Translations under genes and position numbers: made by a program
In this document: in pieces, positions 18,242 to 21,458 of the stretch
Layout: the number at the start of each line of letters is the position of its first letter
Numbering within the stretch: the first letter of the stretch is position 1
The notes under the pieces: generated by a model
Seen by the model: only the letters and a program-made list of their open reading frames with translations
Told to the model about the DNA's origin: nothing
Database searches by the model: none
Source: Synechococcus sp. PCC 7336
GTDB taxonomy: Bacteria; Cyanobacteriota; Cyanobacteriia; Thermostichales; PCC-7336
DNA length: 64,000 nt
Assembly (NCBI RefSeq): GCF_000332275.1
Contig: NZ_CM001776.1
Coordinates: 4,648,008 to 4,712,007, forward strand
Reading direction: 5' to 3'

Positions 18242-18566
18242 GAGTTCAACAATCTCACCTCAAAGCCCCACAGGCTATTGATGTTAAACCAAGCCTAGTC
18301 AGAAACCTGTAGTTTTAATGAGGCACCTTTTAGTCCCCCTCACTAACGCTGTTAACCACTGCATTAGCCCCCTTGTATCTTGGAAGAGAGCAGTAGACCG
18401 CTAGCCCCCTAGGTGTAGAACGCCGTGATTTAGTCAAGGTCGCTGCTTGACTCATGCATCGACAACTCGAAAAATCGCCAGGGTCAAGAACCCGAATTGT
18501 CCAAGGTCGAGTGATGGATGGGATGACAAACAATGCGTTCAATCACGGAGTAGGAGCGTCTGGATC

Positions 18567-19516
<950 letters not shown>

Positions 19517-19592
19517 ACACTCGCCCCCTAAATCCCCCATTCTGGGGGACTTGCGAGAGATTTTCTTCGGCTTATTTAGTATTTGTAGATCG

Positions 19593-19765
19593 GGCTCATC
19601 GGTTCTGGCTATGCTGTCCGTCGTCCTAAAGAGTCCAAAAGCCTTGTTAGGTAAGGCTTTCATGAGATCTTGACCATAAAGAGGTATGTTTTACCGTCTA
19701 ATCCATTGCTGGCAAGGCTTTGAGCAGCTTTGGCATGGAACTAGCATACTGGGTCCGGTAGAGCC
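19593..19765. mobile_element. 173-bp miniature insertion with 8-bp target duplication
   Basis: Compared with the sister spacers, the first spacer contains 173 extra bases flanked by GTAGATCG on both sides (19585-19592 and 19766-19773); the uninterrupted spacers read GTGGATCG at that point. The insert begins GGCTCATCGG and ends CCGGTAGAGCC, giving short imperfect terminal inverted repeats. It has no coding capacity. It differs in sequence from the palindromic miniature element found elsewhere in the window. Confidence 0.75.
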
Positions 19766-19998
19766 GTAGATCGTTTGGTTTCGTGCGCAGCTATGTCAAC
19801 TGTCTAAGTGGCTAGAGAAGACTTCAAAAAAGTATACGAGCAATGCAGATCGCGATCGCCCTTCAATCTCTCATTCCTTCTTCAGGAACTCTCAACGACA
19901 ACCCAAAATTGTGGCCAAGTCCCCCACTAGTGGGGGATTTAGGGGGCCATAGTGCAAAGCTAATCGGGCAATATAAACACAAAACACGGTGAATTCTG

Positions 19999-20379
19999 AT
20001 GCCTCGAAAAGGCGATCGCATTCGAGGCAACTCTCCAGAAATCATCCAAGCTGCCCGAGAACTTCGTCAGCGTCTCACTCCTGCTGAAGTCCGTTTGTGG
20101 AATGCGCTTAAAAATAGACAGATAAACGGTTTCCGTTTTCGATGCCAGCATCCCGTTCAAGGATTTGTCGTTGACTTTTATTGTCCTGCTTGCTGTTTGG
20201 TTATTGAGGTTGATGGCAGTGTTCATGACAGCCGTGGGGAATATGATACGGCTAGGACAGAGAAACTGGAGACATTTGGGTATCGGGTGTTGAGGTTTGG
20301 GAATGAGGAGGTGATGGAGAATTTGGATAAGGTTGTAGAGAGGATTGTGGAGGGATTGGGATTTGGAGGGATCGGCTAG
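19999..20379 (+). CDS. DUF559 endonuclease-domain protein, copy 1
   Basis: A 126-residue protein of the DUF559/Vsr-like superfamily. ARELRQRLTPAEVRLWNAL is followed by FRFRCQHPVQGFVVDFYCPA and LVIEVDGSVHD, which form the restriction-endonuclease-like core with its acidic residues, and then YGYRVLRFGNEEV-type sequence near residue 95. It differs from the second copy at three residues (F/L, V/I and C/R in the central region). The gene is bracketed by inverted repeats. DUF559 proteins are predicted nucleases related to very-short-patch-repair enzymes and homing endonucleases; their biological role is not settled. Confidence 0.9.
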   Translation: MPRKGDRIRGNSPEIIQAARELRQRLTPAEVRLWNALKNRQINGFRFRCQHPVQGFVVDFYCPACCLVIEVDGSVHDSRGEYDTARTEKLETFGYRVLRFGNEEVMENLDKVVERIVEGLGFGGIG

Positions 20380-20695
20380 GTGTTTTGATGCTTTGCACTC
20401 GCCCCCTAAATCCCCCATTCTGGGGGACTTGCGAGAGATTTTCTTCGGCTTGTTTAGTATTTGTGGATCGTTTTGTTTCGCGCGTAGCTATGCTAACTAT
20501 CTAAGTGGCTAGAGGAGACTTCAAGAAAGTACACGAGCAATGCAGATCGCGATCGCCCTTCAATCTCTCATTCCTTCTTCAAGAACTCTCAACGACAACC
20601 CAAAATTGTGGCCAAGTCCCCCACTAGTGGGGGATTTAGGGGGCCATAGTGCAAAGCTAATCGGGCAATATAAACACAAAACACGGTGAATTCTG

Positions 20696-21076
20696 ATGCC
20701 TCGAAAAGGCGATCGCATTCGAGGCAACTCTCCAGAAATCATCCAAGCTGCCCGAGAACTTCGTCAGCGTCTCACTCCTGCTGAAGTCCGTTTGTGGAAT
20801 GCGCTTAAAAATAGACAGATAAACGGCTTGCGTTTTCGATGCCAGCATCCCGTTCAAGGATTTATCGTTGACTTTTATTGTCCTGCTTGCCGTTTGGTTA
20901 TTGAGGTTGATGGCAGTGTTCATGACAGCCGTGGGGAATATGATACGGCTAGGACAGAGAAACTGGAGACATTTGGGTATCGGGTGTTGAGGTTTGGGAA
21001 TGAGGAGGTGATGGAGAATTTGGATAAGGTTGTAGAGAGGATTGTGGAGGGATTGGGATTTGGAGGGATCGGCTAG
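20696..21076 (+). CDS. DUF559 endonuclease-domain protein, copy 2
   Basis: A 126-residue near-identical copy of the gene 697 bases upstream, within the same pair of inverted-repeat borders. Core motifs VDFYCPACRLVIEVDGSVHD and the C-terminal RFGNEEVMENLDKVVERIVEG are intact, so both copies look functional. Near-identity of genes and spacers indicates a recent tandem duplication or gene conversion. Confidence 0.9.
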   Translation: MPRKGDRIRGNSPEIIQAARELRQRLTPAEVRLWNALKNRQINGLRFRCQHPVQGFIVDFYCPACRLVIEVDGSVHDSRGEYDTARTEKLETFGYRVLRFGNEEVMENLDKVVERIVEGLGFGGIG

Positions 21077-21458
21077 GTGTTTTGATGCTTTGCACTCGCC
21101 CCCTAAATCCCCCATTCTGGGGGACTTGCGAGAGATTTTCTTCGGCTTGTTTAGTGTTTGTGGATCGTTTTGTTTCGCGCGTAGCTATGCTAACTATCTA
21201 AGTGGCTAGAGGAGACTTCAAGAAAGTACACGAGCAGTGCAGATCGCGATCGCCTTTCAAGCCCCGCTCCCTTCCCCAAAACCTCTCAACGATAACCCAA
21301 AATCGTGGCCAAGTCCCCCACTGGTGGGGGATTTAGGGGGCAGATGCAGCGATTGACAGCGCTAGTGAGACGTGCGAAATCGCCAACTCTTCAGCTAGAG
21401 ATCTCTATCGATCTATCCTCAAGACTAAAGCTTTCAATTTGGACATGTTTAGTTTTGC

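Follow-up and report, generated by a model that had tools for sequence, protein, structure and literature searches.

Tandem DUF559 nuclease genes bordered by hairpin-forming palindromes in Synechococcus sp. PCC 7336, a probable copy of a widespread minimal mobile element

The window analyzed in this study is a 64,000-nucleotide stretch (positions 4648008 to 4712007) of the single-contig, 5.07-Mb genome of the cyanobacterium Synechococcus sp. PCC 7336. An array at window positions 19524 to 21340 contains two near-identical DUF559 genes and three border pairs with a 697-bp period, in the order border pair (A-spacer-B), gene, pair, gene, pair. Border pair 1 (19519–19950, 432 bp) comprises the A1 hairpin (19524–19553), a spacer with 181 bp more than those of the other pairs, and the B1 hairpin (19916–19946); its tails, CCCCCTAAAT, point out of the pair. 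It is followed by DUF559 gene copy 1 (19999–20379, plus strand, 126 amino acids; PF04480, E 3e-37), border pair 2 (20397–20647; A2 hairpin, 20402–20431; spacer; B2 hairpin, 20613–20643), gene copy 2 (20696–21076, plus strand, 126 amino acids), and border pair 3 (21094–21344; A3 hairpin, 21099–21128; B3 hairpin, 21310–21340), behind which no gene lies. Pairs 2 and 3 are 251 bp each, and the three pairs are mutually 89 to 95% alike. A broken IS110-family transposase gene in two ORFs (18795–19516, plus strand) stands just before border pair 1, outside the cassette.

Exact copies of CCCCCTAAATCCCCC occur at 19524 (+), 19932 (−), 20402 (+), 20629 (−), 21099 (+), and 21326 (−), with no further copy in the window, and the two genes are placed between borders 2 and 3 and between borders 4 and 5. 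Each site is part of a hairpin with a predicted folding energy, as single-stranded DNA, of −7.2 to −9.9 kcal/mol; the z-score was −3.4 for A but only −1.5 to −2.1 for B. The initial annotation of this DNA had described tandem DUF559 cassettes with alternating inverted, hairpin-forming borders, a 697-base period, and a third border without a gene, and our analysis recovered all of these features, the 697-base register being kept from about 19765 to 20660. The two gene copies differ by 4 bases and 3 residues in 381 bp, and the spacer of the border pair has no second occurrence elsewhere in the genome. Because the border pairs are direct repeats, unequal recombination suffices to explain the doubling of the DUF559 gene in the window, which is an ordinary tandem duplication and not a transposition.

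The two window proteins scored 127 to 130 bits against PF04480. R23, E30, W34, Q50, D59, E70, H76, and D83 are invariant across the aligned DUF559 family, and D72 is at least 90% conserved. Profile searches matched a gonococcal DUF559 structure (PDB 3hrl; E 2e-31) and I-Bth0305I (PDB 3r3p; E 2.5e-5), and Foldseek recovered 3hrl (2.6e-8), 3r3p (3.5e-5), and, more weakly, 1vsr. Profile, fold, and conserved acidic and histidine residues place DUF559 among the predicted PD-(D/E)XK, Vsr-like nucleases, and its catalytic domain is homologous to that of the EDxHD homing endonuclease I-Bth0305I.

We then considered the border repeat in the whole genome. The 16-mer CCCCCTAAATCCCCCA occurs 67 + 64 times on the two strands, compared with 0 + 1 for its mirror image, and only 6 of these 131 exact sites are at DUF559 genes. 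The border usually appears as convergent pairs 114 to 141 bp apart, with at least 36 pairs among the matches listed (101 sites), and all of the 18 or so pairs inspected were inside an approximately 282-bp miniature inverted-repeat transposable element (MITE) with 32-bp outer inverted repeats reading (T)AAACC...GTAGTTTT. Since the pairs are mostly found in this element, the border family in this genome was spread mainly by, or within, an unrelated MITE. Convergent pairs, fixed spacing, and many copies are the marks of REPINs, but here the pairs are carried by a MITE with terminal inverted repeats. The full MITEs (L006–L035) begin with AAACC after a T and end with GGTTT before an A, and a lone outer inverted repeat (AAACC..CTGTAG) was seen at window position 18286 (+), upstream of the broken IS110 gene. 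Elsewhere in the genome (G000:C1:3942786–3944963), the spacing of exact sites points to seven tandem border-bearing elements with a period of 338 bp. Neither of the two remaining full DUF559 genes in this genome has the window border; both adjoin a different G-rich palindrome, CCCTCATCCCC.AGCCCC.TCTCCC...GGGAGAGGGG..GGGTGAGGGC, which pointed to a general rather than a local rule. In L003 (own genome, 688877–692188), the DUF559 gene at 1456–1848 is followed immediately downstream by a type I-B cas7/cst2 gene (TIGR02585), and a T3-flanked relative in Baaleninema (L132; the types are defined below) seems to have the same neighbor.

To survey the surroundings of DUF559 genes, we drew DUF559 matches from 146 genomes of the phylum and examined 60 stretches of up to 20 kb each, searching for a layout of C-run, C-run, and G-run. 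The hairpins were sorted into three types: T1, with loop A..T, which is that of the window; T2, with loop TT..AA; and T3, BoxC-like, with CTCTCCC..GGGAGAG. The layout motif was present on both sides within 400 bp at 36 of 48 DUF559 loci (ORFs shorter than 400 amino acids), whereas random positions drawn from these stretches gave 0.4%. With a 250-bp limit, 25 of 57 DUF559 ORFs were flanked on both sides, whereas none of the 410 other ORFs shorter than 250 amino acids and only 4 of 788 non-DUF559 ORFs of any size from the same stretches were. The closest upstream motif was in reverse orientation more often than not (34 versus 9), and the closest downstream motif was mostly forward (27 versus 11), so that the tails are directed toward the DUF559 gene, as in the window. 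A T1–T3 palindrome was found on any side within 450 bp at 51 of 61 sampled cyanobacterial DUF559 loci (random positions, 5%). In a scan that added 80 DUF559 loci from many phyla and is biased toward relatives of the window clade, one was present at all 14 cyanobacterial loci (controls, 3–5%) and at 48 of 66 loci of other phyla (random positions, 4%). Text searches of a literature collection containing few subscription journals or preprints returned no published link between DUF559 and a repeat. Picosynechococcus PCC 7002, a tractable laboratory strain, carries on pAQ6 (L283) a T1-type DUF559 gene that has palindromes to either side and stands between a DUF499 gene, on its upstream side, and a DUF1156 methylase gene, on its downstream side; the same arrangement is present in PCC 7003 (L284). 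Single T1 palindromes also form long tandem arrays on one strand with approximately 45 to 47 bp spacing (G121:C1:206056–207060 and 384367–385200).

The type of palindrome followed the clade of the nuclease. In the protein phylogeny (146 DUF559 domains), the 118 rows carrying a type label required 11 type changes, compared with at least 38 (mean, 45) in 300 shuffles; for the 69 cyanobacterial rows, the numbers were 5 and at least 23 (mean, 31), respectively. A well-supported clade of 19 domains was exclusively T2 (one row unlabelled), and the 14-row clade of the window, which includes Symplocastrum, Drouetiella, Pegethrix, Phormidium, and Picosynechococcus, was exclusively T1. Ten genomes contain paralogous DUF559 genes with different types, each matching its clade, and in one of the genomes (G121) a T1 gene and a T2 gene are 5 kb apart. 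Such clade-matched types among paralogs of the same genome argue against insertion at any permissive spot. Matching beside the gene could nevertheless come from linkage within a cassette, without recognition. Genomes that hold the cognate clade had more exact T1 and T2 motifs (p about 0.0001–0.002, not corrected for phylogeny), which is partial support for an action in trans; G011 (106 T2), G039 (49), and G133 (37 T1) are exceptions, being rich in repeats while lacking the DUF559 gene that would match them.

A cassette encoding a 138-amino acid DUF559 protein occurs at five loci (G064, G048, G087, G127, and G072) with 94 to 97% DNA identity, which stops abruptly at ACCTAACCCCCC... and ...GGGGGAGAGGTC. 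The unit of palindrome, gene, and palindrome is exactly 601 bp in G064, G048, G087, and G072 and contains no gene besides DUF559; that of G127 is 556 bp and lacks the left half-pair. The right flank is common to G064 and G048. On the left, some 30 bp, themselves a dispersed repeat, are common to G064 and G072; the remaining flanks differ between loci. For G072 and G127, the cassette lies at the junction of a rearrangement, with conserved DNA on one side and foreign DNA on the other. When the flanks were searched for within the genera of G072, G127, and G087, the left flank was either rearranged or not found and no base-exact empty site was obtained, and the four 601-bp copies, compared without such a site, displayed no target-site duplication.

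DUF559 matches in long ORFs, which we had expected to serve as a negative control, proved to be in-frame cassettes. The hosts of these DUF559 domains, which are accompanied by translated palindromes (PSPPAPLPRGEG...PPSPQGEGGRGDEG), are Eco57I, Type ISP, and N6/N4 methylase genes; for one host, orthologs without the insert (G087, G136, G048, and others) have just a short variable linker at the site. One DUF559 domain (L121, in G011) is situated in an intein of an N6/N4 DNA methylase (TIGR01443 above cut-off), at the place of the endonuclease; further palindrome-coded stretches are found upstream of it. By contrast with homing endonucleases, most DUF559 cassettes are free-standing or in frame without an intein or intron. 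Several palindrome pairs that have no nuclease (L103 and L110) are likewise translated as in-frame parts of the restriction-modification genes that hold these cassettes. Rickettsia palindromic elements are in-frame palindromes as well. They share with the present case the maintenance of palindromes in frame inside protein genes, but their sequence is different and the DUF559 case carries a nuclease domain in the same reading frame.

Judged by sequence, the palindromes flanking DUF559 genes match the triplex-capable layout of the BoxC/PIT/TM_ECO elements (Hoyne et al. 2000; Holder et al. 2015, PMC4666352), with C-run, loop, C-run, loop, and G-run. Both have a short loop, are GC-rich and present in many copies, and have a tail with a repeated run, and the T3 palindromes hold the BoxC/PIT core CCCTC..CTCTCCC..GGGAGAGGG. 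The available text of PMC4666352 treats the motif as an orphan, reports no gene for mobility close to the E. coli copies, and describes no nuclease partner, cassette, or in-frame copies. Its TM_ECO table for MG1655 gives 23 copies, one at 1351204–1351239, and ycjD, an E. coli DUF559 gene, is at 1351407–1351760, 168 bp from this BoxC/PIT element. The element beside ycjD (element 9) fits the published BoxC/PIT consensus, and a half-palindrome overlaps the 3′ end of ycjD and codes for its final residues. The K-12 segment with ycjD and BoxC (658 bp) replaces the 7.9-kb eef operon of ATCC 25922; this alternation has been reported (PMC12817139), and the available part of that report makes no mention of the repeat.

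The arrangement also resembles REP/REPIN sequences with their RAYT (the REPtron; PMC3733652, PMC3116915), in which a small nuclease gene is bracketed by palindromes, many palindromes occur elsewhere in inverted pairs, and the type follows the gene family. The REPtron partner is, however, an HUH/tyrosine transposase rather than a PD-(D/E)XK protein, and the GTAG or CGTC tag is absent from the DUF559 elements, whose tails read as given above in the window and CCCCCCTAA or CCCTCACCCC elsewhere. The DUF559 element would work like a REPtron but falls outside that family, having another enzyme and no GTAG/CGTC tag.

With a probability of roughly 60%, we interpret the window locus as one copy, doubled in tandem, of a minimal mobile element that is widespread and REP-like and in which a Vsr/homing-type nuclease takes the place of the RAYT transposase. 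This interpretation draws on the association of gene and palindromes, their orientation, the clade specificity, the fixed-length cassette with differing flanks, the in-frame residence, and the fold. The element would be a single-gene cassette, a DUF559 nuclease with a palindrome pair of matching type on either side, and the palindromes would be REP-like hairpins with a repeated C-run tail, of the intrastrand-triplex/PIT/BoxC kind. We infer that the nuclease recognizes or cuts its border: it would recognize palindromes of its own type in their extruded form, hairpin or triplex, and then nick or cut them. Through repair of the break, the pair of palindromes may be copied into a second break, with or without the gene, and the window duplication would have arisen by recombination between the direct-repeat palindrome pairs. 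The suggestion in the initial annotation of a self-propagating or homing unit was upheld in several respects, namely the flanking of DUF559 genes by palindromes far above chance in relatives and other phyla, the tracking of nuclease clade by palindrome type, the recurrence of the cassette in differing flanks, the homing endonuclease-like catalytic fold, and the intein case; it did not hold for the local expansion or for the border copies of the window's own genome, most of which lie apart from DUF559 genes. A broader proposal is that DUF559 proteins are the dedicated mobility enzymes of all BoxC/PIT/triplex palindromes, a PD-(D/E)XK system without a transposase that cuts structured DNA, is copied during repair, and can live in frame in restriction-modification genes. 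We put this forward tentatively, at somewhat less than even odds.

The strongest competing explanation is that DUF559 is a passenger, an accessory repair or defense gene, and that the palindromes are spread by IS200/RAYT, a MITE transposase, or recombination of unstable DNA, the match of types being due to linkage. It would account for the MITE with its own outer inverted repeats in the window genome and for the repeat-rich genomes without a matching DUF559 gene, and E. coli triplex motifs have been linked to genome rearrangement in the available text of PMC4666352. IS200-type (Y1) transposase genes in repeat-rich genomes had the motif in only 1 of 12 cases, and we rejected RAYT/IS200 as the palindrome partner on the basis of the 11 genes without palindromes. 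The absence of such flanking from the 410 other short genes of the same loci, the lack of a second gene in the moving cassette, and the rise of repeat counts elsewhere with the cognate nuclease (again not corrected for phylogeny) also speak against a passenger, and we consider this explanation unlikely. A role in genome upkeep, in which DUF559 would be a repair nuclease like Vsr, processing or policing hairpins and triplexes, adjacency being regulatory and neither part mobile by itself, is less probable still. The Vsr-like fold, the role in very-short-patch repair proposed for the Caulobacter DUF559 protein VsrA (PMC12907096), and the gene order of E. coli fabI-sapF, which is fixed within lineages, would fit it, but cassettes with 94 to 97% DNA identity whose flanks differ, and the presence of in-frame copies in restriction-modification genes of several unrelated kinds, do not. 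Finally, a local accident, in which palindromes were inserted around DUF559 by chance and unequal recombination doubled the gene without any gene-repeat link, agrees with the plain tandem duplication of the array and with the location of most border copies elsewhere in the genome, but it is contradicted by all of the survey statistics, and we rejected it because palindromes were more frequent at DUF559 genes than at either the control positions or the control ORFs.

Recognized for decades in both E. coli and cyanobacteria, BoxC/PIT triplex motifs have had neither a partner gene nor a spreading mechanism. A nuclease clade that predicts the palindrome type opens the question of their spread to direct tests, and suggests that palindromic repeats can owe their propagation to enzymes of a class not related to the RAYT transposases. 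If the reading of the locus as a copy of a minimal mobile element is true, it would give a role to DUF559, a domain of unknown function in many phyla, and a possible mechanism by which palindromes insert in frame into proteins.
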